Part shown: in pieces, positions 10,135 through 33,243 of the stretch | Numbering within the stretch: the stretch's first letter is position 1 | Layout: each line of letters begins with the position of its first letter | NCBI GenBank assembly: GCA_009781235.1 | Contig: WQYM01000005.1 | Location: forward strand, 1-33,827 | From: Bacillota bacterium | GTDB taxonomy: Bacteria; Bacillota; Clostridia; Christensenellales; Pumilibacteraceae | Length of the DNA stretch: 33,827 nt | Reading direction: 5' to 3' | Program-made: the position numbers and the translations under genes | Notes under the pieces: model-generated | What the model was told of the DNA's origin: nothing | What the model saw: only the letters and a program-made list of their open reading frames with translations | Databases searched by the model: none

Positions 10135-11088
10135 TTATTCCTCGTCTTCGGTTTCCAGCGCTTCCGCTACCGAAACGGCTTCCTCTTGTTCGGCGGCCTC
10201 TTGGACTTCGGCCTCGCTAAAGGCCTCTTGGGCGGCCGCGATGATCTCGCCCTCAGCGTCGTTCGAGCCCTCGTCGGCATCTTCGAAGCCGGGTACAAAA
10301 TCGTCCCCGTCTACGGCGTCGGCCATATTTAATGCGGCAGCGGCCGCGGCGGATTCGGCCAAAATCTGCGCCTCGATTTCGCGGCGTTTGGCTAAGCCTT
10401 CCTCACCCTCGCGCGCCTCGATAACCGCGTCCGCCATCGCGCCCGCAATCAATTTGATCGCGCGGATTGCGTCGTCGTTGCCCGGGATTACGTAGTCTAC
10501 CTCGTCGGGGTCGCAGTTGGTGTCCACGATGCCGACAATCGGAATCTTTAATTTGCGCGCCTCGGCGACGGCCAAATGCTCTTTTTTGGGGTCTACCACA
10601 AACAGCGCGCCGGGGAGCACGCGCATTTCCTTAATCCCGCCTAAATTTTCCTCTAAGCCGTCGCGCTCCGCCTTTAATTTCATGACCTCTTTTTTGGGGA
10701 GAAGGCTAAACTCGTTCATTTTCTCCATCATGTTGAGCTTGTTCATGCGCTCGATGCGGGAGCGGATGGTCGTAAAGTTGGTTAAAGTGCCGCCGAGCCA
10801 GCGGGAGCGGACAAAGTACATGCCGCATTTGACGGCTTCGGCCGCGATGGCCTCTTGCGCCTGCTTTTTGGTGCCGACGAATAAAATCGACTTGCCGGAC
10901 GCGGCGACGTCGCGCACAAAGTTGTACGCCTCGTCAATCAGCACTACCGTTTTTTCTAAGTTGATAATGTAGATGTCGTTGCGAGCGGTGTAGATATACT
11001 TTTTCATCTTGGGGTTCCACTTGCGCGTGGGGTGGCCAAAATGCACGCCCGCCTCAAGCAGTTGCTTCATCGAAATGATGTTTGCCAT
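10135..11088 (-). CDS. rpsB: 30S ribosomal protein S2 with Ala/Glu-rich C-terminal extension
   Basis: [47 protein letters not shown]. Confidence 0.98.
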
Positions 11089-11342
11089 GGTTTAATTTCT
11101 CCTGTTTCTCGGGATCGCCCGCTTTGCGGGTACGTCCCTATCCTCCCCGCGCTTATTTGGTATTGCCGCAAAAAAATTTACGGCGAAAACCTGCCTGCCC
11201 TTTACACGTCCGGCATGAAAAATTTACCTGACGCAACAGAAAAGACAGATCCGCAACGGGTGCGAATTTTGAACAACCGAATTATAGCACAGAATTTTTG
11301 AATATGCAACCGAATTGCAACGGTATTTTTTTTGTTTTAAAT

Positions 11343-11400
11343 ATTGTCAGGGGGACGGTGGTGTTGACAATATTGTCACTACCACCGTCCCCCTGACAAT
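11343..11400. repeat. REP-like palindrome flanking the RAYT gene (29-bp arms, 2 mismatches)
   Basis: ATTGTCAGGGGGACGGTGGTGTTGACAAT/ATTGTCACTACCACCGTCCCCCTGACAAT. Confidence 0.95.
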
Positions 11401-12152
11401 TATTCTCTAAGCATGTTTCTTAGCTTTTCCCTGCTGACCCCAAGTAACACGGCGATGTCCCTAATGCTTGCGCCGCTTCTGTCTTTCAACTCCTCGACAA
11501 GCTTTCTTACCTGATTGACGTTCATGTTTCTTCCCGGAGTAATCTTGTAATCCTTGTTAAGCTCTAAAAAAACTTTCTCACAGTCTTCGTACTCTTTATC
11601 ATCGTGCTCAAGCCAACTTGTATCGGTTCTCTCCCCCATAATCGCCGTTATATTTTCAGGAGCAATATCATAAAAGATTGCTGCTTCGTCAAAATCGACA
11701 ATTCCCGTCCTTCTTAAATAGTTCGAGTAACTCGAAAACGGATAGTCCTCCGCTTTCTTAACCATTCCGGCTTTCAACGGATTATTCTGTATGTATGCCA
11801 TGCAATAAACCAACTGTCGTTCGCTTCGAATCATCTCACTCTTAAACCTATCTCTAAAAACGTACCCAACTCTGTTATTGATTCTATTGTAGTATCTCGC
11901 ATAATCCGCGTTCACGCGCTTAAAATACAAGGCCAATTCCTGCGCGTCAACAACGCTCAGTAAAATATGCGCGTGGTTTCCCATGACGCAAAACGCAAGT
12001 ATCTTTGCGGGATAATGAATCTTATTCTCTCGCAAGCAAGTCAAATAAAACCCCTTGCAGTGGTCATCGGGAAAAACAAATTCTTTCCCAATCCCCTGCA
12101 CCATCACGTGATAGTATTTTCCGTCTAAATCTTTTCTCGCTATCCTTGGCAT
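11400..12152 (-). CDS. REP-associated tyrosine transposase (Y1_Tnp/IS200-like)
   Basis: MPRIARKDLDGKYYHVMVQG, HUH-type motif FCVMGNHAHILL, YCMAYIQNNPLKAGMV; C-terminal helix-turn-helix-like segment. Confidence 0.92.
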   Translation of the reverse strand: MPRIARKDLDGKYYHVMVQGIGKEFVFPDDHCKGFYLTCLRENKIHYPAKILAFCVMGNHAHILLSVVDAQELALYFKRVNADYARYYNRINNRVGYVFRDRFKSEMIRSERQLVYCMAYIQNNPLKAGMVKKAEDYPFSSYSNYLRRTGIVDFDEAAIFYDIAPENITAIMGERTDTSWLEHDDKEYEDCEKVFLELNKDYKITPGRNMNVNQVRKLVEELKDRSGASIRDIAVLLGVSREKLRNMLRE

Positions 12153-12200
12153 ATCGACATAATATCACAATTTATTCGGTCTGTCAACTATTTTTTGCAA

Positions 12201-12260
12201 TATTGTCAGGGGGACGGTGGTAGTGACAATATTGTCACTACCACCGTCCCCCTGACAATA
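12201..12260. repeat. REP-like perfect palindrome (60 nt)
   Basis: TATTGTCAGGGGGACGGTGGTAGTGACAAT/ATTGTCACTACCACCGTCCCCCTGACAATA, exact inverted repeat. Confidence 0.97.
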
Positions 12261-12264
12261 ATTT

Positions 12265-17822: not shown

Positions 17823-20800
17823 TTACATTTCAATAAACTCGCCGCCGGAAACGGCGAAAACGCTTTTGCGGGCGACGCGCTTTTTAAGAATCCGTCCGGC
17901 TGCCAAAGCGTAAAGCCCGATTTGCCTACGATAGGAAGCCATGAATTCTTCGGCGAGTTTGCCCGTTTTATAGTCGACAATCTCCACCATACCGTCCGCG
18001 TCCTCTATAAGCAGGTCGATAACGCCTTGCAGCAGTACGCCGTTTTCCATGCAATAGATAAACGGCAGCTCGCGGTAAAATTTCCGCCTACTCACGCGCT
18101 CCGCTATTTTTTCAAGCGCGGTATTGGCGGTGTTTTTTTGCAAAAGCCGCGCAAAATCGGGGTAGTTTTTTGAGAAGCCGTCGAAATTTTCGGGGAACGG
18201 CTTAGAAAAATCGGCGGTTTCTAAGAATTTGTGATAGGCGTCCCCGACATCGGTTCCGTACGCAGGTTCGGGGGGCGGGACTCGGGGCTCGGGGTTCGGG
18301 ATTCGGGGGTCGGGGCTCGGGACTCGGGGCTCGGGATTCGGGATTCGGGGGTCGGGATTCGGGGTTCGGGATATTAACTCGTCTTCTTTTAACTGACCAC
18401 TGAAAACTTCCCACTGACCACTGTCCAGGGGCTCGGGGGTCGGGATGGTTACGTTCATTCCCGTAGGGGTCGATTTACAAATCGACCCGCGGGCTGCACA
18501 CCGTGCAACCCCTACGGCTTGCCGGCTCGCGTCCCCTCCGTCGTTTTCTCGCGTCGCTTCGCTCCCCGCGCCTGTAAAAAACATGCCGCCGGCATATTTT
18601 TGCGGCTTCGCCGCACTCCGCCAGCGCATTTTTCGTTTTTCGTTTTTCGTTTCATTTGTAATTTGTTCCGGGACGCCCGATGGGTCGTTCCCTACGGAAA
18701 ATCCCCCTTCGCGCGCCAGTTGCGTTACCGTCGTCTTTACGGGCAATTGCGGGTGCGGGTACACAAAATCCGTGAACTTTCGGACGCAGGCAACAAAGTT
18801 TTCGCTCCCCTGCTTTTCCGGGGGGAGGTGTCGGGGGGACGGGGGCGTTGATTCAAAAATGCAAGATTTTTGAACCCCTGCGGGGCACTTCGCTACGCTC
18901 GTGTCACCACGCCTCGGGTCGCCGGACGGCGACCCTCCGTCCCCGGGCAGAGCCGCAACCAAGGATTCCTGATTCCCCGTAGGGCGGGGACTTGCTCCCG
19001 CCGTTGGGCTTGCTCCCGCCCCTACGGATTGCCGGCTCGCGTCCCCTCCATCGTTTTTCGTTTTTCGTTTTTCGTTTTTCGTTATATTTACCATCGCCGG
19101 GTACAGCCAGTCAAGCCAGCAGCGCGCGTCTATTCCCTCTTTGGGCTCGTAATCCTTCTTGATGCGGCTAAACAGCGCGAGATGGAATTTAGCACGCGTA
19201 CAAGCGACGTACAAAATCCGCATTTCCTCCTCGCACAGTTTTTTGCGCACCTCCAAGACCGCCCGGCGGTACAGGCTGGTTTTGACGGTTTGCCCGCCAA
19301 AAAGATCAAACCACTTAAGCACCGCGCCGAACTTTACATCCAAAATGCAGTCCCTTTTTACATCGTCGAGGTTGAAATTTTTTGAGAGGTTCGGGAGTAT
19401 TACGAACGGGAACTCGAGCCCCTTGGCGGCGTGCACCGTCATAATCCGCACCGCGTCCGCCTCTCCGCCGCCCGAAAGCTTAACCGCGCCCGCCTCCGCC
19501 GCCAAAAGTGCGGCGGCAAAGTCGCGCCCCGCCGAAAGAGCGGAGAGCCTGTCCAAAAACTTAGACAGCCCGTCCGCGGCGTTATGGGCGTCCGGAAGGC
19601 TGAAGGCATATTTAAAATAGTCGTGCTCGGCGCAAACCTTGCCTGCCAAATCCGCAAAGCTGAGTACCCGGGAAAGGTTTTCATAGCGCGCAAGGTTTGC
19701 AAACAGGGCTTGGAGTTTTTGAGAAAGTTCGGGATTCGGGGGTCGGGGGTCGGGGGTCGGGGCTCGGGGGTCGGAGCTCGGGGGTAAGGTATCAGGGCAC
19801 AAGGCACAAGGCACAGGTAATGGATAACGCATATCACCGATACCTGTGACTTGTGCCCTGATACCTATGCCCTCACTCCCATTCTTTCCGTCTTCTTTCA
19901 ACTGACAACTGACAACTGAAAACTGACAACTGTCTCCGGGATTCGGGACGGTTGCGCACATTCCCGTAGGGGTCGAAAGTCCATCCTGCGACCCGCTGCC
20001 GTTGTACGAGGAAAGTGCCGTGCCGGGGGGAGGGGTTGTCACGGGGACATAGTACTTGACAACCCTAACTTTTCCGGGGGGAGGTGTCGGGGGGACGGGG
20101 ACGTCGATTTCGGAAAGCAAGTTTCCGAAACCCCTTCGGGGCACTTCGCGCTGTGCGCTCGTGTCGCCGTAAACCCGTCCCCGGGCAGAGCCGTAACCAC
20201 CACGTCTCGCGTCGCCGTGCGGCGGCCCTCCGTCCCCGGGCAGAGCCGTGCCTGAGCATTCCCGATTCCCCGTAGGGCGGGGACTTGCCCCCGCCGTAAA
20301 GCACGCCACGTCCCCGGGCAAAGCCGTAACCTCACCATCCGCCCCTACGCCCTGACTCCTAACCAAAAATTCCCTCCGACATTCCTCATTCCTAATTTCT
20401 AATTCCTCACTTTCCTGTCCACTGAAAACTTCCCACTGACCACTGACCCCCGTAGGGGTCGATTTACAAATCGACCCGCCGTCCCCGGGCAGAGCCGTAA
20501 TCAAGGATTCCCAATCCCCCGTAGAGGTCGGGTCGCCGGACGGCGACCCTCCGTCCCCCTGCTGTGCCGTAACCGTACAATATTTTTCACACGCCTCAAA
20601 AAACGGCCAATCGCCGCCATCCGGTTGGGCATCCGCCCACAGGCGAATTTGAGCCAATTCCCCGTCGGAAAAATAGCCGCCCAACGGAGACTTTAACACG
20701 GAGACAAGCGCGATATCGTCGCGGCGGTTGTCGATCAGCCGCAGGTAATTGATCAGCCCCCGGATCGCCGGGTTTTCCGCGCCGTCCGCGCTTTTTTGCA

Positions 20801-23207
20801 TCGTTACGGGAACGCCCGCGCGCCGCAGCTTTTCGCTCAAAACCCCGGCAAACTTCCCCATCGAGCGCAGCAGCACCGCGATGTCGCCGAATTCCGCCGC
20901 CCGTTCCGCGCCGTCCTCGGCGATAAACCGCTTTTTAAGCGACAAAATGTGCGCCGTCACCGCATCGGCCTCGGCAGCTTCGGCGGAGGTGTCCGCATCG
21001 GCATCGGGGAATACGTGGTTTTTTACGCTGTACGGGGCTCGGGGGTCGGGCGTCGGGGTTCGGGGTTCGGGACGAGGGAAATTAGGAATTAGGAATGAGG
21101 AGTGAGGAACGGTGGAGGGATTGGGTGTGTTCATTCCCGTAGGGGGCGATGTCCTCGCTGGCCCGCCGGTTGCCAAGTCCCCCGCCAGCGCTGCAAGGCC
21201 TCTCTGCTCCCCGCCTACCGTTGTGCGGGCGCTCATTGCCGTGCCGGGGGGAGGTGTCAGGGGGACGGGGGTGTTGATGCCGAAAGGCAAGCTTTCGCCC
21301 CCCCTACGGGGCACTTCGCGCTGCGCGCTCGTGTCACCACGCCTCGGGTCGCCGTTCGACGACCCTCCGTCCCCGGGCAGAGCCGCAGCCACGGAGTCCC
21401 TCCGACATTCCTCACTCCTCACTCCTAACTCCTCATTCTTCCGACATTCCTCACTCCTCACTCCTAACTCCTCATTCTTCCGACATTCCTCACTCCTCAC
21501 TCCTAACTCCTCATTTCCCACAAGCCGGCACACCACCGGCTCGACGCCCAGCGCGCCCAAGCCCGTCTCGTTAAAGCAAGCCGTGCCCGCATAATCGACG
21601 CCGCCAAACTCGCGGGTCATCGCATCACTAAACACGCGGTCGCAAAAGCGCAATATCCCGCTGTCGCTGCGAAAATTTGCGTTTAAGCGGATTACGAACT
21701 TTTCGTCCTCATAACCCGCAAATATCCCCGGGTCGGAAAGCCGAAAGCCGTAAATGGACTGCTTGACGTCGCCCACGTAAAACCTTTTTGCCGCAATGCG
21801 GGAAAAAATTGCGTCCTGCAAGGGGTTGACGTCCTGAAACTCGTCCACCATCAGCCACCGGAACCTTGCGCCGATTTCCGCAGCTGCATCGGGGTTGCAC
21901 AAAATGCGGTACGCCGCGCGCTCAATGTCGTTAAAATCGCACCGGCTTTTGCGGCGCTTTTTTGCAGCAAAAATTTTTGCGGCGCTTTTAGCAAGCTCGA
22001 CCAAAAGCGCTGTATGCCCCGCCGCAAGCGCAGGGTCGGCGTACGACAGCGCCTCGTCGCGCTCCGCGCAAAAATCCTTGTACGCGCCCCGCAACTTTTT
22101 ATAGCGCTCGTAAAGCGCGGCCTGCGCATCGGACGCGGGTTTAATGACCGGGAGCCTTTTAAGCTCGCCCGCATCGGCAGCAACCTCGTCGTAAAAAACC
22201 GCGACAGAAGCGGCGCAAGACACAAAGCCTGCGTGCTCGCAAGTCGTTTTTAACTCTGCCGCACGCCGTAAAAACCCCCCAAGCAGGCTTTTATAATTCT
22301 CGGAAAGCGCCGCGATATGCCCGGCATGGCCTTGCGTCGCCGCAGCCGATTTTTCAAACCACGCGTCGGGGTCGGGGTGAATGGCGGAGAATTCGTATAT
22401 CCTTTTTACGATAGCCGCCATCCGTTTGTCGTTTCGGCGCGGCGAAAGGATTTCAAAAAGCTCCAAAAAATCGCCTTGGGTCCGGGGTTCGGAGCTCGGG
22501 GCCCGGGGTTCGGGATTCGGGGTTCGGGATATTAACTCGTCTTCTTTTAACTGTCCACTGTCCACCGTCCACTGTCCACTGTCTTGCGCCGCTTCGGCAA
22601 TCGCCTCGTCTACGGAAAGGTTTAGCAGTGCGTCCGACTCGGCCTCGTCCAACACCTCGAACGCGGGGTCGATGTCGTCGGCATAATAAAAATATTCGCG
22701 CGCGATAGAGGCGCAAAACGCGTCTATCGTGGAAATCTGCGCCGTCGGAAGCTGCCCGATGGCACGGGAAGCCCAAGTGGGGGGGCGGGGGTTGGGGATC
22801 GGGGATCGGGGCTCTGTGGTTGGGTATAAGGTATCAGGGCACAAGGCACAAGGCACAGGTAATTGATTTTGCATATCACCGATACCTGTGCCTTGTGCCT
22901 TGATACCTATGCCTTTTTCGGAAGTCGGGATTCGGGACATAAATCCATCTTCTTTCAATTGTCCACCGCCCACTGTCCACTGTCCACTAAGCTGCTGAAG
23001 CAGCTTAGTGCGCATATCGGCAGCCGCGGCTTTGGTGAACGTGCAGACTACCATGGAAGAAAGCTCCTCCCCTGCCGTCAAAAGCCTGAGGATGCGCTGA
23101 ATCATCACGGTCGTTTTACCGCTGCCGGCAGAGGCGGAAACTAAAATTTCGTCGCAGTCGCTTAAGATGGCCGCACGCTGTGCGGGAGTGAATCGGTCTA
23201 AATCCAT
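17823..23207 (-). CDS. addA: ATP-dependent helicase/nuclease subunit A, expanded to 1794 aa by in-frame repeat inserts
   Basis: ILVSASAGSGKTTVMIQRIL, VDEFQDVNPLQDAIF, FYVGDVKQSIYGFR, LNANFRSD, IMTVHAAKGLEFPFVI, YVACTRAKFHLALF, VEIVDYKTGK. Confidence 0.95.
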   Translation of the reverse strand: MDLDRFTPAQRAAILSDCDEILVSASAGSGKTTVMIQRILRLLTAGEELSSMVVCTFTKAAAADMRTKLLQQLSGQWTVGGGQLKEDGFMSRIPTSEKGIGIKAQGTGIGDMQNQLPVPCALCPDTLYPTTEPRSPIPNPRPPTWASRAIGQLPTAQISTIDAFCASIAREYFYYADDIDPAFEVLDEAESDALLNLSVDEAIAEAAQDSGQWTVDSGQLKEDELISRTPNPEPRAPSSEPRTQGDFLELFEILSPRRNDKRMAAIVKRIYEFSAIHPDPDAWFEKSAAATQGHAGHIAALSENYKSLLGGFLRRAAELKTTCEHAGFVSCAASVAVFYDEVAADAGELKRLPVIKPASDAQAALYERYKKLRGAYKDFCAERDEALSYADPALAAGHTALLVELAKSAAKIFAAKKRRKSRCDFNDIERAAYRILCNPDAAAEIGARFRWLMVDEFQDVNPLQDAIFSRIAAKRFYVGDVKQSIYGFRLSDPGIFAGYEDEKFVIRLNANFRSDSGILRFCDRVFSDAMTREFGGVDYAGTACFNETGLGALGVEPVVCRLVGNEELGVRSEECRKNEELGVRSEECRKNEELGVRSEECRRDSVAAALPGDGGSSNGDPRRGDTSAQREVPRRGGESLPFGINTPVPLTPPPGTAMSARTTVGGEQRGLAALAGDLATGGPARTSPPTGMNTPNPSTVPHSSFLIPNFPRPEPRTPTPDPRAPYSVKNHVFPDADADTSAEAAEADAVTAHILSLKKRFIAEDGAERAAEFGDIAVLLRSMGKFAGVLSEKLRRAGVPVTMQKSADGAENPAIRGLINYLRLIDNRRDDIALVSVLKSPLGGYFSDGELAQIRLWADAQPDGGDWPFFEACEKYCTVTAQQGDGGSPSGDPTSTGDWESLITALPGDGGSICKSTPTGVSGQWEVFSGQESEELEIRNEECRREFLVRSQGVGADGEVTALPGDVACFTAGASPRPTGNRECSGTALPGDGGPPHGDARRGGYGSARGRVYGDTSAQREVPRRGFGNLLSEIDVPVPPTPPPGKVRVVKYYVPVTTPPPGTALSSYNGSGSQDGLSTPTGMCATVPNPGDSCQFSVVSCQLKEDGKNGSEGIGIRAQVTGIGDMRYPLPVPCALCPDTLPPSSDPRAPTPDPRPPNPELSQKLQALFANLARYENLSRVLSFADLAGKVCAEHDYFKYAFSLPDAHNAADGLSKFLDRLSALSAGRDFAAALLAAEAGAVKLSGGGEADAVRIMTVHAAKGLEFPFVILPNLSKNFNLDDVKRDCILDVKFGAVLKWFDLFGGQTVKTSLYRRAVLEVRKKLCEEEMRILYVACTRAKFHLALFSRIKKDYEPKEGIDARCWLDWLYPAMVNITKNEKRKTKNDGGDASRQSVGAGASPTAGASPRPTGNQESLVAALPGDGGSPSGDPRRGDTSVAKCPAGVQKSCIFESTPPSPRHLPPEKQGSENFVACVRKFTDFVYPHPQLPVKTTVTQLAREGGFSVGNDPSGVPEQITNETKNEKRKMRWRSAAKPQKYAGGMFFTGAGSEATRENDGGDASRQAVGVARCAARGSICKSTPTGMNVTIPTPEPLDSGQWEVFSGQLKEDELISRTPNPDPRIPNPEPRVPSPDPRIPNPEPRVPPPEPAYGTDVGDAYHKFLETADFSKPFPENFDGFSKNYPDFARLLQKNTANTALEKIAERVSRRKFYRELPFIYCMENGVLLQGVIDLLIEDADGMVEIVDYKTGKLAEEFMASYRRQIGLYALAAGRILKKRVARKSVFAVSGGEFIEM
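18265..18700. repeat. In-frame composite insert A5b in addA
   Basis: GGGATTCGGGG-type arrays, TCTTCTTTTAACTGACCACTG module, GTAGGGGTCGATTTACAAATCGACCC palindrome (18462-18488); between host segments TVTQLAREGGF and YGTDVGDAYHKFLE. Confidence 0.85.
18820..19085. repeat. In-frame composite insert A5a in addA, contains one multi-hairpin core
   Basis: GTCGGGGGGACGGGGGCGTTGATTCAAAAATGCAAGATTTTTGAA ... CCGTCCCCGGGCAGAGCCG, then TTTTTCG array. Confidence 0.88.
19728..20572. repeat. In-frame composite insert A4 in addA, the largest (~280 codons)
   Basis: Arrays, GGTATCAGGGCACAAGG inverted-repeat module, core copy, GTAGGGGTCGATTTACAAATCGACCC (20451-20477). Confidence 0.88.
21030..21518. repeat. In-frame composite insert A3 in addA with core and 3x39-bp array (21402-21518)
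   Basis: Encodes NEELGVRSEECRK x3 and ALPGDGGSSNGDPRRGDTSAQREVPRRG. Confidence 0.92.
22478..22585. repeat. In-frame insert A2 in addA
   Basis: CGGGGTTCGGGATTCGGGGTTCGGGATATTAACTCGTCTTCTTTTAACTGTCCACTGTCCACC. Confidence 0.85.
22775..22984. repeat. In-frame insert A1 in addA
   Basis: GGGGATCGGGGATCGGGG array, GGTATCAGGGCACAAGGCACAAGGCACAGGTA ... TACCTGTGCCTTGTGCCTTGATACC, then TGTCCAC array. Confidence 0.85.
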
Positions 23208-23209
23208 GA

Positions 23210-26200
23210 TTAGTCCTCTTTAGAAAAAATCTCTTCCCGCCCTACCTTTGCATACTTGCGAACCCTGCCTTCCCCGTCCGCGCCAAAGCCGCACATCGCG
23301 CCAAAGCTACAGTAATCGCACACACCCTCGGCGGGGCTTGGCGCAATGTAACCCCCGCACATCTCCTCTAAAGCCTGCTGCGCCACCCGCACGGCGTATT
23401 CCGTCAGCCCGCCAAGCTCCCCCGTGCCCATGCCATACTCCGACTTTGCCATCGGAATAACGCCGTCCGCACCGGGCTTAACATTGCGCTTCGCCTCGAT
23501 GACCGGGCTCTTATACCCGGGCTCGATCAAGCGGCGGTCTGCGGCCGCCAAAAGCTCCCCGGAGTCATTATACACCCCGCATAGGCTGCGCGGCGGCTCA
23601 CCCGCCTCGATTAGCGGCTTTGAGAGCGGAAAGTAAAACATGCCGGCCCCTTGATAGCCGTTTTCCTCCAGCACCTTGGCGTACAGCGGAAGCTGGAGCG
23701 CGCGCCCGTAGTAGAGCTCTGTAGCCGAAAACTTGGGGAGCTTGCCGGTTTTATAATCGATAACGCGCGCAAACCCCCCAAAGGTATCGACGCGGTCAAT
23801 CTTGCCGCGCAGATAAACCGGGGAGGGGCGGGATTCGGGTCGGGGAGAATTAGGAATTAGGAGTGAGGAGTGAGGAACGGTGGAGAGATTGGGTGTGTTC
23901 ATTCCCGTAGGGGTCGATGTCCTCGCTGGCCCGCCGGTTGCCAAGTCCCCCGTAGGGGGCGCAAGTCCTCTCTGCAGCCCGCTGCCGTTGTGCGGTGGCT
24001 CTTGCCGTGCCGGGGGGAGGTGTCGGGGGGACGGGGACGTTGATTCAAAAAGGCAAGCTTTTTGAACCTCCTGCGGAGGCACTCCGCTGCGCTCCGTGTC
24101 ACCGTACCCGTCCCCGGGCAGAGCCGCAGCCACGGAATCCCTCCGACGTTCCTCACTCCTCACTCCTAACTCCTCATTCTTCCGACATTCCTCACTCCTA
24201 ATTCCTAACTCCTCACTCTTCCGACATTCCTCACTCCTCACTCCTAACTCCTCACTTTCCTGACCCCTAGCCCCTAAAAACGCCACCGTTTTTAGGTCGT
24301 TGCCGCGCGCGTGGCCGAACCGCAGCTCTAGACCCAACGGTTTAAACGCGCCCGCCGTGTACGATTCCGCGATGCGCCCGGCAAGGCGCGCGGCCTCGTC
24401 TACCGCGCGCGCCAAGAGGCGCTTGTTTTTTTCCAGCAGCGCGCCGAATTCTTCTTTAGCAATCGAGCCGGCAATCGCCCTCATGCGGTTTTCGGCGTCC
24501 TTAAAGCCGTCTAAAAAGCAGGCTTCGACAAAACGTTCCGCCGCCCGGTGCAAAAAGCTGCCGATGTCGGTAGGCCTGATTTCGCCCGTGTCGCGCTCTT
24601 TTAGCCGCAGCCCCCCGGCGGCAAAGCACCGGTATGGGCAGGCCAAATATTCCTCGAGCCGCGTGGCCGAAACGGTATTATCGCGAAAATAGAGCAAGGG
24701 AGTCCGGGGCTCGGGGCTCGGGGGTCGGGATTCGGGACGAGGAAAATTAGGAATTAGTAGTGAGGAGTGAGGAATAGCGGAGGGATTGGGCATGTTGTTT
24801 CCCGTAGGGGTCGGAGCCCGGCAGTTCGACCCGCTGCCGTTGTGCGGTAACTCTTGCCTTGCCGGGGGGAGGTGTCGGGGGGACGGGGGTGTTGGTTCAA
24901 AAAGGCAAGCTTTTTGAACCTCCTGCGGAGGCACTTCGCGCTGTGCGCTCGTGTCACCACGCCTCGGGCCGCCGCTTAGCGGCTCTCCGTCCCCGGGCAG
25001 AGCCGTAACCGCAGGACTTCGATTCTCCGCCAACGGCGATGCCCTCATCGCCCCGCCGTCCCCCTGCTGTGACGTAACCAATTTACAAAGCTCCGCCGTC
25101 ATCGGCAAGCCCCTGCCGCCTGCCCGCATGTCCGACAGCGCGCCGAGCAAAAGCTCCGCCGCGTTTGAAAGGGTGGAGATTTCGGCCGCCATTTCATTCA
25201 TTTTGGCCGCGTCGTTATGTTCCACCGCGTTGCGGAACGAAAGCCCGTCCGCTAAGCTCCGCCGCGTTTTTTCGACGGAATTGTGTACGACGCTTTTTGC
25301 GCCGCGCGTAACTGCGGACGCCAAATCCGAAATCCGGCTGTCCCCCGCAAGCGAGTACGCCAAAAAAAGCCGGTCGGCGGACGCTAAAACGCGCACCGCC
25401 TCGCACCGGGCGGCGCGAGCCAGCGCATCCGAATCCGGCCCGGCAGCCTTTCCCGCCGCCGAAAGAACGGCGTTATCCGCGTCGGAAAAAAGCCCCCCGG
25501 CTTCCCGGGCTTCAGGCAGAACGCCCTCGCAAAAATCGACGGCGAACACCTCTTTAAACCTCCCCGCGCGGAACGTTTCCGCGCCGCCCACCACTACCGC
25601 GTCCGCCGTTTCGTTGACGAGCGAAATGCCGGTCGCGCCCACACCCTCGGAGAAGAGGGAGAAGAGGGAATGAGGAGTGAGAAGTGAGGGGTGAGGAACG
25701 GCGGATGGGGAATAGGGGATGGGGGATGGGAATACAAATCCGTCTTCTTTTAACTGATCATTGACCACTGACCCCTGACCACTGACCCCCGCCAGCGCTG
25801 CAAGGCCTCTCTGCAGCCCGCTGCCGTTGTGTGAGAAAACTGCCGTGCCGGGGGGGAGGTGTCGGGGGGACAGGGACGTTGATTCAAAAAGGCAAGCTTT
25901 TTGAACCTCCTGCGGAGACACTTCGCTGCGCTCCGTGTCACCGTACCCGTCCCCGGGCAGAGCCGTAACCTCACCATCCGCCGCTACACCCTGATTCCTA
26001 ACCCAAAAATCCCTCCGACATTCCTCACTCCTCACTCCTAACTCTTCATTCTTCCGACATTCCTCACTCCTAATTCCTAACTCTTCATTCTTCCGACATT
26101 CCTCACTCCTCACTCCTAACTCCTCACTCACCTCCCCCCTAACCCCTGAAAGCTGACCCCTGTCCACTGACTCCTGGCCCCTGAAAACCGAAGTTAAAAA

Positions 26201-27598
26201 CTCCGCGGCCTCCAAGAGCCCGTCGTAAATTTGCCCCAAATCCGCGCCCGCGATTTCCGAGAGTTCCGCCGTTTTCTCTTTTGCACCGCATAAGGTAAAT
26301 ACGCCGCGCAAAAAATCACGGAACGCCTCGCCCGTTTTGGCGGACGCGAAAAGCTTGGCGAATTCGGCCAAGAACCCAACGAGCGAGGCGCGCACATTCT
26401 CGGCGGTTTTGGATTCGGGACTCTGGATTCGGGACTCTGACAAATGTGACAAATGGGGACGGATCCATTTGTCATTTTGACAAATGGATCCGTCCCCATT
26501 TGTCACTGGCCACTGACCACTGTCCCCCGCAAACTCCTCCAAAAACCCCTTGTAATTAACGCCCCGGCTCAATACGTACTCCTCAAAAATATCTGCGGCA
26601 CGCTTGTCGATGCCGGAATAATAGTTTTTTGACAATGCAATCATGTCTTGGCGGCGAAAGCGCCCGGCCGCCGAAACGCAAAGCTCTAAAAACCGGAACA
26701 GCTCGGTATCGCGCAAGTTAAGCTTGCGGTCGATGAAAAACGGGATATCAAATTCGGTTAAAATCCGCTCGATCGGCGCGTAATCGGCGGGGGGCGCCAG
26801 GATGCAAAAATCCCGGAACCGTGCGCCCTCTATCACGCCGCGCCGGATGCGCTTTGCCGTCGCTTTGACGCGGTCAGAAATCTCGGCCGCCTCAAAAAAC
26901 TCCATCTCGCCGAATGCATACGTCAGGCTTTCGACGTCGAAAAAGGTATAGGAGGCGGCTTTATCTTCAAAAATCGCCAAAACGTCGCGCTCTAACGCGG
27001 TAAACCGGTCGAAACCCGCGACATAAAAATGCGTGCACGAGAGGTCGTCGTAGGCAATATCGCGTGCAAGCAGCCGCATCCGCCCGGCCAAATCGACGAA
27101 TTTGTTTTCCGTTTCGGCCAAAAACCGCGTGTAGACGCGTGCGATGTCGGCCAGCTTTAAGCCTGCCGCGCCGCCTTTGCCGACAAAATCGGACGGCGCC
27201 AAGCCCGCGTTTGCCGCGACCGAGATTGTTTCGTACATTTTAGCGGCAAAGCCCGGAAGGCGCGCGCTGCTTTTAAAAACGCGGAAATCCTTTTTTACCT
27301 CGTCTACGATGCCGCGCACCAGCATCACCGCGCCGCCCGCCGATAAAAACCCGGGGTCGCGGCGCACAAATTTTTGAAAAAGCCGGTTAAACGTCAGCAC
27401 CTCGACGTCAAACGCGCCGGTTCCCCTTGTAAACAAAAATCGCTCCATGTAAATGGAGCATTTATCCGGGACGACAACGTAATGTTTCACGGCCAAATCG
27501 ACCGTGCGCGCGCATAAGCAATCGCGCACGGCCAAAAATGACGCGTAAAAGTCAGTAAAGGTTTCGACCCGGATTCCCACACCGTAAGTATACGGCAT
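23210..27598 (-). CDS. addB: ATP-dependent nuclease subunit B, expanded to 1462 aa by in-frame repeat inserts
   Basis: C-terminal nuclease RVIDYKTGKLPKFSATELYYGRALQLPLYAKVLEE; cysteines CPYRC and CDYCSFGAMC; adjacent to addA. Confidence 0.92.
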   Translation of the reverse strand: MPYTYGVGIRVETFTDFYASFLAVRDCLCARTVDLAVKHYVVVPDKCSIYMERFLFTRGTGAFDVEVLTFNRLFQKFVRRDPGFLSAGGAVMLVRGIVDEVKKDFRVFKSSARLPGFAAKMYETISVAANAGLAPSDFVGKGGAAGLKLADIARVYTRFLAETENKFVDLAGRMRLLARDIAYDDLSCTHFYVAGFDRFTALERDVLAIFEDKAASYTFFDVESLTYAFGEMEFFEAAEISDRVKATAKRIRRGVIEGARFRDFCILAPPADYAPIERILTEFDIPFFIDRKLNLRDTELFRFLELCVSAAGRFRRQDMIALSKNYYSGIDKRAADIFEEYVLSRGVNYKGFLEEFAGDSGQWPVTNGDGSICQNDKWIRPHLSHLSESRIQSPESKTAENVRASLVGFLAEFAKLFASAKTGEAFRDFLRGVFTLCGAKEKTAELSEIAGADLGQIYDGLLEAAEFLTSVFRGQESVDRGQLSGVRGEVSEELGVRSEECRKNEELGIRSEECRKNEELGVRSEECRRDFWVRNQGVAADGEVTALPGDGYGDTERSEVSPQEVQKACLFESTSLSPRHLPPGTAVFSHNGSGLQRGLAALAGVSGQGSVVNDQLKEDGFVFPSPIPYSPSAVPHPSLLTPHSLFSLFSEGVGATGISLVNETADAVVVGGAETFRAGRFKEVFAVDFCEGVLPEAREAGGLFSDADNAVLSAAGKAAGPDSDALARAARCEAVRVLASADRLFLAYSLAGDSRISDLASAVTRGAKSVVHNSVEKTRRSLADGLSFRNAVEHNDAAKMNEMAAEISTLSNAAELLLGALSDMRAGGRGLPMTAELCKLVTSQQGDGGAMRASPLAENRSPAVTALPGDGEPLSGGPRRGDTSAQREVPPQEVQKACLFEPTPPSPRHLPPARQELPHNGSGSNCRAPTPTGNNMPNPSAIPHSSLLIPNFPRPESRPPSPEPRTPLLYFRDNTVSATRLEEYLACPYRCFAAGGLRLKERDTGEIRPTDIGSFLHRAAERFVEACFLDGFKDAENRMRAIAGSIAKEEFGALLEKNKRLLARAVDEAARLAGRIAESYTAGAFKPLGLELRFGHARGNDLKTVAFLGARGQESEELGVRSEECRKSEELGIRSEECRKNEELGVRSEERRRDSVAAALPGDGYGDTERSGVPPQEVQKACLFESTSPSPRHLPPARQEPPHNGSGLQRGLAPPTGDLATGGPARTSTPTGMNTPNLSTVPHSSLLIPNSPRPESRPSPVYLRGKIDRVDTFGGFARVIDYKTGKLPKFSATELYYGRALQLPLYAKVLEENGYQGAGMFYFPLSKPLIEAGEPPRSLCGVYNDSGELLAAADRRLIEPGYKSPVIEAKRNVKPGADGVIPMAKSEYGMGTGELGGLTEYAVRVAQQALEEMCGGYIAPSPAEGVCDYCSFGAMCGFGADGEGRVRKYAKVGREEIFSKED
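23825..24290. repeat. In-frame composite insert B4 in addB with core and 3x39-bp array (24143-24259)
   Basis: Encodes SEELGVRSEECRK-type repeats and ALPGDGYGDTERSGVPPQEVQKACLFESTSPSPRHLPP. Confidence 0.92.
24700..25080. repeat. In-frame composite insert B3 in addB with core
   Basis: Encodes ALPGDGEPLSGGPRRGDTSAQREVPPQEVQKACLFEPTPPSPRHLPP. Confidence 0.9.
25655..26190. repeat. In-frame composite insert B2 in addB with core and 3x39-bp array (26015-26131)
   Basis: Encodes NEELGVRSEECRK-type repeats and ALPGDGYGDTERSEVSPQEVQKACLFESTSLSPRHLPP. Confidence 0.92.
26446..26506. repeat. REP-like perfect hairpin inside addB coding sequence (29-bp stem, 3-nt loop)
   Basis: GTGACAAATGGGGACGGATCCATTTGTCA-TTT-TGACAAATGGATCCGTCCCCATTTGTCAC. 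Confidence 0.96.
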
Positions 27599-29842: not shown

Positions 29843-31387
29843 TTATTCGCTATTCGTTAAATCCTCGTCGCGTGCGGCAACATCCGCATACCCCTGCGGC
29901 CGCACAATAACCTGCGCTTTGCCGTGCCCGCACAGCACCACCGGCGGGACGGGGTTGCGGTTGTAATTGGACGCCATCGAAAAGTTGTACGCACCGGTGG
30001 AGAGGACGGCCAAGATGTCGCCGGAGGCTACGGACGCGGGGAGAGCGACTTTCTCAATCAGCGTATCGGTTTCGCAGCACTTGCCGGCAACGGTGAAGTT
30101 TTCCGTTGCACTCTCAAGCGCCTTATTCGCTACAATTGCGTCGTACTTTGCGTCGTAAAGGGTGTAGCGCGGGTTTTCGAACAGGCCGCCGTCCACCGCG
30201 ACGTAGTTTTTGAGACCCGGGATTTTCTTGACCGCGCCGACGGTGTAGAGCGTGGTTCCCGCCTCCCCTACCAAAGACCGGCCGGGCTCGATGATGAGCT
30301 TGGGGGCGCCGATTGACTTTTGCGCGATGCACGCGTTTAGCTTATCCGCAATCGCGCCGACGAATTCGGATAAGGGGGGCGGCTCGTCGCCGGGCAGGTA
30401 GCGTATCGCGTAGCCGCCGCCCATGTTGAGCTCGCGGACATCCCCGCCGATTTCCTTGCGGATTACGGCGATTAAATCTGTCATCCGGTCAACCGCCGCC
30501 AAAAACGGCTCGATTTCGAATATTTGAGAGCCGATGTGGCAATGGATGCCTAAAAAATCGAGGCAAGGGTGCGAGAGGATTTCTTTGACGGCGGGGATGA
30601 CGTCCTCCGGCAAAAACCCGAATTTAGAATCTGCGCGCGCGGTTTGAATAAAGTGGTGGGTGTGCGCGTCCACCTCGGGGTTGATGCGGATAAGAACGCC
30701 TTGACGGCGGGGAGAATGACGAATGACGAGTGACGAGTGACGAATTTCGGATGGGATTGCAGCGGAGTTTCCCGTAGGGGGCAACCCATTGGGCACCCCG
30801 CCGATACAAGCATCCGTCGTTTTTTGCGGGGCGCCCAATGGGTCGCCCCCTACGAGTTCGTTATTATCTCCATCCGTATTTGTAATTTGTAATTTATAAT
30901 TTGTAATTTCTTCTGAATCCGCTGACCCCTGACCCCTGACCCCTGACCCCTGACCCCTCGCCACCTCGGCCAGTGTCTTGATTTCATCAAAATGGTCGAT
31001 AACAATCGCGTGCACGCCCGCGTTGGCGCCGGCGGCAAGCTCCGCGCGCGATTTATTGTTGCCGTGAAGGTATAACCGCTGCGGGTCAAAGCCCGCGGCC
31101 AAAGCGGTGTACAGTTCACCGCCCGAGGCGACGTCGGCGCCTAAACCTAAAGGAGCGATGATTTGATATATCGCCTTGCAACCGAAAGCCTTGGACGCAA
31201 AGCACACCAAATTGTCCGGGTATTTTTTATCAAGCGTGCTTTTCATCTCCAAAGCGGCGGATTCGATGCGTCCCCGCTCCATCACATACAGCGGCGTCCC
31301 GAATTCCTTTGCCAAATCTTCCGCATCGCACCCGCCAAGCTCAAGATGCCCGTTTTTATTTATCGTAAGCGTACTTCGTAAGTTCAT
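29843..31387 (-). CDS. lysA: Diaminopimelate decarboxylase carrying an in-frame repeat insert
   Basis: FASKAFGCKAIYQI, GADVASGGELYTALAAGF, GVLIRINPEVDAHTHHFIQTARADSKFGF, GIHCHIGSQI, IIEPGRSLVGEAG. Confidence 0.95.
   Translation of the reverse strand: MNLRSTLTINKNGHLELGGCDAEDLAKEFGTPLYVMERGRIESAALEMKSTLDKKYPDNLVCFASKAFGCKAIYQIIAPLGLGADVASGGELYTALAAGFDPQRLYLHGNNKSRAELAAGANAGVHAIVIDHFDEIKTLAEVARGQGSGVRGQGSADSEEITNYKLQITNTDGDNNELVGGDPLGAPQKTTDACIGGVPNGLPPTGNSAAIPSEIRHSSLVIRHSPRRQGVLIRINPEVDAHTHHFIQTARADSKFGFLPEDVIPAVKEILSHPCLDFLGIHCHIGSQIFEIEPFLAAVDRMTDLIAVIRKEIGGDVRELNMGGGYAIRYLPGDEPPPLSEFVGAIADKLNACIAQKSIGAPKLIIEPGRSLVGEAGTTLYTVGAVKKIPGLKNYVAVDGGLFENPRYTLYDAKYDAIVANKALESATENFTVAGKCCETDTLIEKVALPASVASGDILAVLSTGAYNFSMASNYNRNPVPPVVLCGHGKAQVIVRPQGYADVAARDEDLTNSE
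30705..30962. repeat. In-frame composite insert in lysA (two types of array flanking a 29-bp-stem palindrome)
   Basis: GACGAGTGACGAGTGACGAA array; CGTAGGGGGCAACCCATTGGGCACCCCGC (30773-30801) / GCGGGGCGCCCAATGGGTCGCCCCCTACG (30826-30854); ATTTGTA array; CCCCTGA array. Confidence 0.93.
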
Positions 31388-31467: not shown

Positions 31468-33243
31468 TTACCTCAGCGTCGGGTGTTTTCCGGCGGCGAA
31501 GTCGAGGCCGGTTAAATCCCAAACCGCGGCGTCCCAGCCGAGTTTGTCCGTATAGAACGATACGGAATTAAGGTCTTCCAAGGTACATACCAGGGTTGTG
31601 CTTCCGGAATCCGACGGGTTATGGTATTGGCCGGTGGATTCCCGGTAAAATTCCTGTCCTTCGTAACGGTAGGATTGCGCCCTGTGCCCTATCGCGCAAA
31701 GGCCGGCCATCGCCATCAAGCTGCCGATATTGATATCGGTTACCTCGGTGATATTGCCGGTCGCAAAGCAATTGAAAATCTTGCCCTTCGTTCTAGCCGG
31801 ATAATTGTCCGCATTATAACCGGCTAAGCCCCCCGCAGAATTCACGTATTCAATGGTTATATGGACGGACGCATAACAATTCTGCACCGTAGCCTTTTCT
31901 ATATACCCAACTAAACCGCCCGCAAACATAAATAGACTCATCGCCGGATTCGGATGCTTATTATACAAGTTCACGTTGCCGCCGGCCGCGTAACAATTTT
32001 CTACCAAGCCGTCTTCGGCAACAACTCCTACCAAGCCGCCGGCCATACAAGAAATAGCGGAGGAATTGGTTACGTCGATCATAAAGTTCTCCACACCCAA
32101 ATTTCGGATAACTCCGCGGCTTGCGCCGAATAAACCCACGCAATCATAAAAAACCGTAATGTTAAAATTGCTTACCGTATGGCCGCTCCCATTAAAAATG
32201 CCGGAAAAATACACGGTCTCCTTACCGCTTACAAATGCGCCTATCCCGATCGGCATCCACTCCGCACCCTCTAAATCAATATCCGCCGTCAACATGAAAT
32301 ACGTATCGGCAAAATCCATCCCAAGGTTCACCAATACGGATAACGCCCATAAGTCCTCGGCGTCGGCAATCAAAAAGGGGTATGCCTCCGTGCCCCATCC
32401 GCCTTCTTCCACCTCGTATTCGACCGGAAGCGACCAACCGGAATCGGCGTAGTTTTCTCCGTCGCCAGCCGCCAAAACCTTGATGGGATATATCCCGGGC
32501 GCCATCAATGCCGGTATCACTAAGTCGAACTCGGGCGCATCGGCGGTGCCGATTTCCGTGCCGTCGATGCTCACCTTATAGCCGGAAGCGCCCGAAACCG
32601 CGTCCCACGTAAGCGATGCGTCGTTAATCTGCAGGTTCGACGGCACGGCAAGGCTGACGACGGGGCGAATCACTTTATATTCAAAAACCGCAGACCAATC
32701 GGAATCGACGTAGTCTTCCCCGTCGCCGACCGCTTTTACCTTGATTTGATACGCCTTTGCTTCCGTTAAATCCGATAACGGGTAACTTGTAAGCTGCGCG
32801 GCGTATTCCGCGCCGTCGATGCTCACCTTGTAGCCGTTTGCGCCCGAAACCGCATCCCACGTAAGCAACGCGTCGTTAATCTGCAGGTTCGACGGCACGG
32901 CAAGGCTGACGACGGGGCGAATCACTTTATACTCAAAAACATTAGACCAATCGGAATCGACGTAGTTTTTCCCGTCGCCGACCGCTTTCACCTTGATTTG
33001 GTACGCCTTTGCTTCCGCAAAATCCGATAACGGATAACTTGTAAGCTGCGCGGCGTATTCCGCGCCGTCGATGCTCACCTTATAACCGGAAGCGTTGTCT
33101 ACGGGCGTCCATGAAAGAACCGCGCCGTCCGCTTGAAGGTTTTGAGGCGCGGCCAGCGGCCCGGCTTGGCGGCAAGCGGAAAAACATAACGCGGCAATCA
33201 ATGAAACGATCGTAATGCATACGGCTTTTTGCAAATTTTTCAT
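31468..33243 (-). CDS. Lipoprotein with fibronectin-III-like repeats and a GLUG-motif-like region
   Basis: Lipobox LIAALCFSAC; repeats LQINDALLTWDAVSGANGYKVSIDGAEYAAQLTSYPLSDL; GGLVGYIEKATVQNCYASVHITIEYVNSAGGLAGYN. Confidence 0.85.
   Translation of the reverse strand: MKNLQKAVCITIVSLIAALCFSACRQAGPLAAPQNLQADGAVLSWTPVDNASGYKVSIDGAEYAAQLTSYPLSDFAEAKAYQIKVKAVGDGKNYVDSDWSNVFEYKVIRPVVSLAVPSNLQINDALLTWDAVSGANGYKVSIDGAEYAAQLTSYPLSDLTEAKAYQIKVKAVGDGEDYVDSDWSAVFEYKVIRPVVSLAVPSNLQINDASLTWDAVSGASGYKVSIDGTEIGTADAPEFDLVIPALMAPGIYPIKVLAAGDGENYADSGWSLPVEYEVEEGGWGTEAYPFLIADAEDLWALSVLVNLGMDFADTYFMLTADIDLEGAEWMPIGIGAFVSGKETVYFSGIFNGSGHTVSNFNITVFYDCVGLFGASRGVIRNLGVENFMIDVTNSSAISCMAGGLVGVVAEDGLVENCYAAGGNVNLYNKHPNPAMSLFMFAGGLVGYIEKATVQNCYASVHITIEYVNSAGGLAGYNADNYPARTKGKIFNCFATGNITEVTDINIGSLMAMAGLCAIGHRAQSYRYEGQEFYRESTGQYHNPSDSGSTTLVCTLEDLNSVSFYTDKLGWDAAVWDLTGLDFAAGKHPTLR

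Follow-up and report, generated by a model that had tools for sequence, protein, structure and literature searches.

This locus raises the question of how addA and addB can each be interrupted by long blocks of repeats and still be read as single open frames, and of what becomes of these blocks in the proteins. The window analysed is an entire contig (C5, 33,827 bp) from a 2.53 Mb MAG (247 contigs, 87% complete). A previous sequence-only reading of this DNA had proposed some ten in-frame repeat sites in the two genes, and this was confirmed by alignment with homologues, which gave six blocks in addA and four in addB (Table 1). Together the inserts account for about 1,120-1,190 aa, or 34-37% of the AddA and AddB pair; with slightly wider hand-set ranges the share is 42% for AddA and 31% for AddB. 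Without the inserts, AddA is ~1,050-1,120 aa and AddB ~1,015-1018 aa long, compared with 1032-1122 aa and 977-1035 aa, respectively, in an alignment of seven homologues. AddAB is also uninterrupted in two congeners, both without any copy of the composite repeat, so that the excess length is repeat-derived, as had been claimed. The explanation that we regard as likely is that palindromes resembling REPs and linked to REP-associated tyrosine transposases (RAYTs), together with slipping heptamer arrays, have colonised genes, and that inserts which left the frame intact were retained and now form disordered loops in the translated proteins.

Table 1. Coordinates of the addA and addB ORFs, of the repeat inserts and of the RAYT gene with its bracketing palindromes in the window.
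Feature	Position	Strand	Description
TTGTCAGGGGGACGGTGGT palindrome, RAYT stop-codon side	11341..11402	.	overlaps last bases of RAYT
RAYT gene	11400..12152	-	250 aa; Y1_Tnp PF01797, E 4.4e-9
Same TTGTCAGGGGGACGGTGGT palindrome, RAYT start-codon side	12200..12261	.	
addA ORF	17823..23207	-	1794 aa; six in-frame repeat blocks; TIGR02785 addA_Gpos matched in 7 stretches
AddA insert 6	18265..18692	-	aa ~1506-1645; precedes nuclease domain
AddA insert 5	18738..19089	-	aa ~1380-1490; upstream of short conserved-looking VTQLA stretch
AddA insert 4	19727..20574	-	aa ~894-1160; largest, about 267 aa; B. subtilis AddA 677|685
AddA insert 3	21018..21530	-	aa ~560-730; full composite; B. subtilis AddA between 508 and 551
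AddA insert 2	22473..22583	-	aa ~213-245; heptamer arrays; B. subtilis AddA 149|160
AddA insert 1	22773..22986	-	aa ~78-145; holds 20-22 bp inverted repeat CAAGGCACAAGGCACAGGTA; B. subtilis AddA 84|95
addB ORF	23210..27598	-	1462 aa; four in-frame repeat blocks; TIGR02773 addB_Gpos matched in 5 stretches
AddB insert 4	23813..24279	-	aa ~1115-1262; full composite; 53-nt outer inverted repeat of heptamer arrays (23843-23895 / 24131-24183)
AddB insert 3	24699..25066	-	aa ~845-950; composite
AddB insert 2	25661..26174	-	aa ~478-640; full composite
AddB insert 1	26426..26521	-	aa ~360-391; palindrome GACAAATGGGGACGGATCCATTTGTC
lysA in-frame insert	30707..30946	-	about 75-80 aa, within lysA (29843-31387)

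Frame retention was examined in an unbiased test using congener ORFs (about 0.8 Mb sampled) as tblastn queries against 857 kb of the MAG. Repeat inserts were open and in the same frame in 19 of 20 cases (p about 1e-8 against an expectation of 1/3, for frame alone), including nine of the ten outside addAB, which lie in whiA, an arsenic efflux protein gene, uvrC (twice), cysS, a dipeptidase gene, trmFO, an ABC transporter gene and a methionine synthase gene. When AddAB was aligned by tblastn with congener proteins, the frame was unchanged from one flank of the inserts to the other, with no stop. In clusters of at least 200 bp, frames other than that of the gene were open in just 12%, so that frame retention is no by-product of generally stop-poor sequence. 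Heptamer arrays inside insert-bearing ORFs were sense-open in all 48 cases, a count to which the ORF definition contributes, and in 28 of these the opposite strand carries stops; stops were found in none of 15 sense-frame genic core copies and in about half of the others, a comparison that is partly circular because genic copies were defined by an open ORF. An apparent frame change at C20:12657 was an artefact caused by an antisense ORF spanning two genes.

The sole frame-breaking insert of the 20 is located at the 3’ end of trmFO (C55:1846-2029, locus L075) and adjoins a GAATTGT/GGATTGT heptamer array, which points to either slippage or a miscounted assembly as the source of the frameshift; by arithmetic, one added unit restores the downstream frame. 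This case, the presence of long arrays within coding sequence and a repeat length of 7, which is not divisible by 3, are all in keeping with contingency loci, where slippage by one heptamer unit would toggle addA, addB and other genes and thereby give phase variation of recombination. Such switching is nevertheless quite unlikely, given that the arrays of most inserts are impure and short and that similar arrays occur in essential genes, where being switched off would be lethal.

The inserts were not confined to addAB. In the sampled part of the MAG, about a third of the genome, clusters of at least 60 bp comprised 76 genic clusters, in frame in 46 ORFs, and 51 intergenic ones; in 20 contigs not selected for the repeat, there were 22 genic clusters in 19 ORFs and 4 intergenic clusters. 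The host genes include repair genes (ligA, pcrA, mutL, uvrC and dinB) along with cysS, murA, murI (glutamate racemase), carB, thrC, argJ, lysA, ispG, ribBA, rimO, trmFO, whiA, prmA and genes for formate-THF ligase, a RumA-type methyltransferase, a P-type ATPase and GH94. The GH94-type ORF (L057:6257-14053, contig C59) spans 2,599 aa with about ten in-frame repeat clusters and runs past the contig end. Several of the insert-bearing genes are essential in well-studied bacteria, which argues that the insert-bearing products work. The proposal of a composite dedicated to the AddA/AddB complex could not be upheld, because within 857 kb the same elements occupy at least 46 ORFs in frame, with every functional class represented, and an addAB-specific function was rejected since the elements are genome-wide; addA and addB are the most insert-loaded cases seen, yet they are not special, only extreme.

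The composite gave ~100 matches in the MAG it comes from, against zero in the two congeners. The TGTCRGGGGGACGG palindrome was present in 69 copies in the sampled 857 kb and in none in the congener, GTAG palindromes (stem-loops) numbered 168 compared with 25, and masked heptamer arrays covered 3.2 kb in 400 kb of the MAG and 1.2 kb in 814 kb of the congener, with the proviso that in a fragmented MAG of short contigs array copy numbers may be collapsed and array lengths wrong. This difference in matches and the strong enrichment of heptamer arrays and palindromes show that the pattern is not due to chance. Among 395 other genomes of the order, 14 had matches to the composite, all of them weak and short and mainly to single heptamer arrays, and an element common to the whole order was rejected on this basis. 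In the two of these 14 genomes with most matches, four loci were inspected, and the arrays lay outside long ORFs, save one in a 328-aa ORF. The loci L170:4726-4806 and L169:4387-4417, from the distant same-order members G339 and G365, are long GAATTAG/TCATTCC heptamer arrays outside long ORFs, indicating that heptamer arrays extend wider than the genus. The nearest named matches of the window lysA were mostly from Clostridia.

Fragmentation of the MAG also has to be considered as a source of the inserts themselves, through repeat collapse or chimerism in short-read assembly or binning, and assembly errors are among the consequences of tandem repeats described in PMC6868369. An artefact of this kind seems quite improbable, as dozens of inserts of variable length preserve the host reading frame at sites defined by homology, which random misjoins would not do, and housekeeping genes on the contig share one consistent repeat population. 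The bin is also without intact alternative copies: an uninterrupted addA or addB elsewhere in the genome, which the earlier reading had named as evidence against the inserts, was looked for in the bin and no second copy was found, and a scan of the genome contigs with the AddB N-terminus gave no match.

The large insert load and the broken frame at the trmFO 3’ end could also be taken as signs of gene decay, with addAB and other genes being pseudogenes that, under relaxed selection in the lineage, are yet to accumulate stops. The helicase and nuclease motifs, which had been noted as kept, were all present in AddAB, as were the Fe-S motifs, and the AddAB cores shared higher identity between the window and genome G001 (48% and 46%) than between genomes G001 and G002 (37.5% and 39%), showing no acceleration of the cores. 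With the inserts being found in essential genes as well, decay is very unlikely, and split or inactive products, another of the outcomes considered initially, are disfavoured by the intact motifs and by cores evolving no faster than in congeners.

The blocks are built from three kinds of module, namely heptamer arrays, GTAG-tagged palindromes and the TGTCRGGGGGACGG palindrome family. In the full composite at 23813-24279, outer inverted heptamer arrays form 53-nt arms that are 85% complementary, and the inner palindrome starts with TGTC(A/G)GGGGGACGG; this composite folded better than its shuffles (z = -3.1). Several inserts also carry GTAG-tagged stem-loops (GTAGGGGTCG...CGACCC), while other inserts contain some of the modules only, and certain ones consist of a heptamer array or a short palindrome alone. 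An Rfam search of the window gave no match at the gathering score, group I and II introns included, and a known RNA family or self-splicing intron was thus rejected; an intein was likewise rejected, since Pfam and NCBIfam scans of AddA, AddB and the further proteins examined showed neither an intein/Hint nor a homing endonuclease domain. Excision of the inserts from RNA or their bypass by ribosomes (intron-like or byp-like), both considered in the sequence-only reading and both resulting in proteins of normal length, would suit the strong hairpins, the core common to many copies and the insert ends at protein loops, but is very unlikely, since neither process would require the kept frames and stop-freedom seen in 19 of 20 inserts and in essential single-copy genes, Rfam families are without a match, and inserts this heterogeneous offer no common excision boundary.

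Of the outcomes envisaged for the inserts, translation as disordered loops fits best, with frames open in essential single-copy genes and the LysA insert modelled as a loop. An AlphaFold2 model of LysA (25 homologues) showed a confident fold with TMt 0.90 to DAP decarboxylase structures, and residues 148-221, corresponding to the insert, had pLDDT < 50 between a helix (133-145) and a strand (229-235); the LysA insert is thus predicted to be a disordered loop in an otherwise kept fold. When placed on B. subtilis AddA, the inserts of AddA come to lie between short gaps (Table 1), and a LigA insert is at the linker that separates the zinc finger from the OB fold (E. coli 391|398). The inserts are hydrophilic and disorder-prone in composition, with P+G contents of 22-26% compared with 10-13% in the cores. 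From sequence and modelling, the most likely fate of the inserts is translation into flexible loops at the protein surface.

As to the origin of the elements, the RAYT of the window matched NF047646 (REP_Tyr_transpos) with 75.7 bits and E 3.4e-21, slightly under the 80-bit cut-off. The bracketed gene (11341-12261) sits between rpsB (10135-11088) and a gene for a BspA-type LRR protein. Y1_Tnp (Pfam) matches were found at 7 loci in the MAG compared with 1 and 3 in the congeners, and besides the window copy there are four further matches of RAYT size in the MAG. In contigs C5 and C44 the RAYT is bracketed on both sides by palindromes of the TGTCRGGGGGACGG family; the flanking family is defined by TGTCRGGGGGACGG and the GTAG tag is not constant there, though GTAG stem-loops are enriched in the MAG. 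The elements would be moved by the RAYTs. Like a REPtron or REPIN-RAYT system, the locus combines a RAYT-type Y1/HUH transposase gene with high-copy dispersed inverted palindromes that bracket it. It differs in that REPtron palindromes are mostly extragenic, whereas those of the MAG are abundant within genes (22 genic and 4 intergenic clusters in the unselected contigs), and in the use of TGTCRGGGGGACGG, without a constant GTAG tag, as the flanking family.

In the explanation that we favour, REP-like palindromes linked to RAYTs would have spread through genes and intergenic DNA of a Clostridia lineage by RAYT-driven mobility, and the 7-base tandem arrays would have grown via slippage. The survivors are insertions that keep the frame without a stop codon, a pattern for which purifying selection would be the filter, and as suggested by frame retention and one structural model, they would be translated into disordered loops that occupy linkers and the turns between helices and strands in enzymes that are otherwise normal. 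As 7 and 3 share no common factor, a heptamer array free of stops should be readable in each frame of its strand, encoding one seven-residue unit, and each unit gained or lost should shift the downstream frame, so that slippage could also restore it; the coprime period and the unit-wise shift may explain how inserts come to be tuned into frame. Precise in-frame deletion would be rare, and inserts may thus accumulate in a ratchet-like manner. Genic clusters are, on the unselected contigs, commoner than simple random insertion plus purging suggests, which leaves the mechanism of insertion or growth incompletely explained. A more far-reaching interpretation, which is possible but doubtful, is that the mobile elements have adapted to coding DNA and that long selfish segments, tuned into frame by slippage and translated, have been built into a sizeable part of the proteome, the recombination, mismatch-repair and ligase enzymes among it, with possible effects on genome stability.

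Palindromic repeats within ORFs of known proteins were reported for GTAG/CGTC REPs by Di Nocera et al. 2013 (PMC3733652); these are mostly extragenic, are linked in the GTAG class to RAYT transposases, often lie, when intragenic, in genes for DNA synthesis and repair (uvrA/B, recBCD, DNA ligase) and in their largest intragenic clusters encode 43-82 aa. The MAG shares with them the palindromes inside ORFs, repair genes included, and the RAYT association. It differs in inserts of up to about 267 aa, proteins that are up to 42% insert, composites with heptamer arrays and a Clostridia host, a group absent from the list for GTAG repeats in PMC3733652. The likeness to Rickettsia palindromic elements (RPEs) pointed out previously is, by description of placement, among the best-fitting comparisons: RPEs, described in 2000 and 105-146 bp long, are palindromic elements that sit in frame within conserved genes unrelated to one another and add translated segments to the products (PMC10969869, PMC2229807), and palindromes in the MAG are also in frame in unrelated protein genes. 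In the passages of these two sources that deal with RPEs, no link to RAYTs and no heptamer arrays are described. In Xanthomonas and Nostoc, G-rich 7-base repeats (GGGAATC and GGGGATT types) are dispersed in the genome, with about a third being intragenic in Nostoc, and have been studied as simple arrays for G-quadruplexes and regulation (PMC4692102); dispersed and partly intragenic 7-base repeats are common to both cases, whereas the many heptamer types of the MAG flank or nest palindromes in large in-frame inserts. Intragenic in-frame REPs, even in repair genes, are therefore already known, with few similar cases and none on this scale, and what is new here is the scale, the composite make-up, the breadth over essential genes and the lineage.

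If the inserts are translated, they constitute an extreme natural experiment in the tolerance of essential enzymes to foreign low-complexity sequence and show selfish DNA spreading inside coding sequence rather than between genes. Dozens of insertion sites in well-characterised enzymes such as LigA, CysS, LysA and AddAB are open to testing. The findings also bring a Clostridia lineage into REP/RAYT biology and add it to the hosts of intragenic REPs, and they tie heptamer arrays, which are usually treated separately, to palindromic elements.

In addition to these elements, the window contains a 45-bp tandem repeat at 2516-2629, which falls within the N-terminal linker of IF-2 (infB), and a 252-bp tandem duplication (2.1 copies, 91%) at 32554-33094 in a 591-aa ORF with fn3/GLUG matches, the latter being likely a duplicated surface-protein domain.
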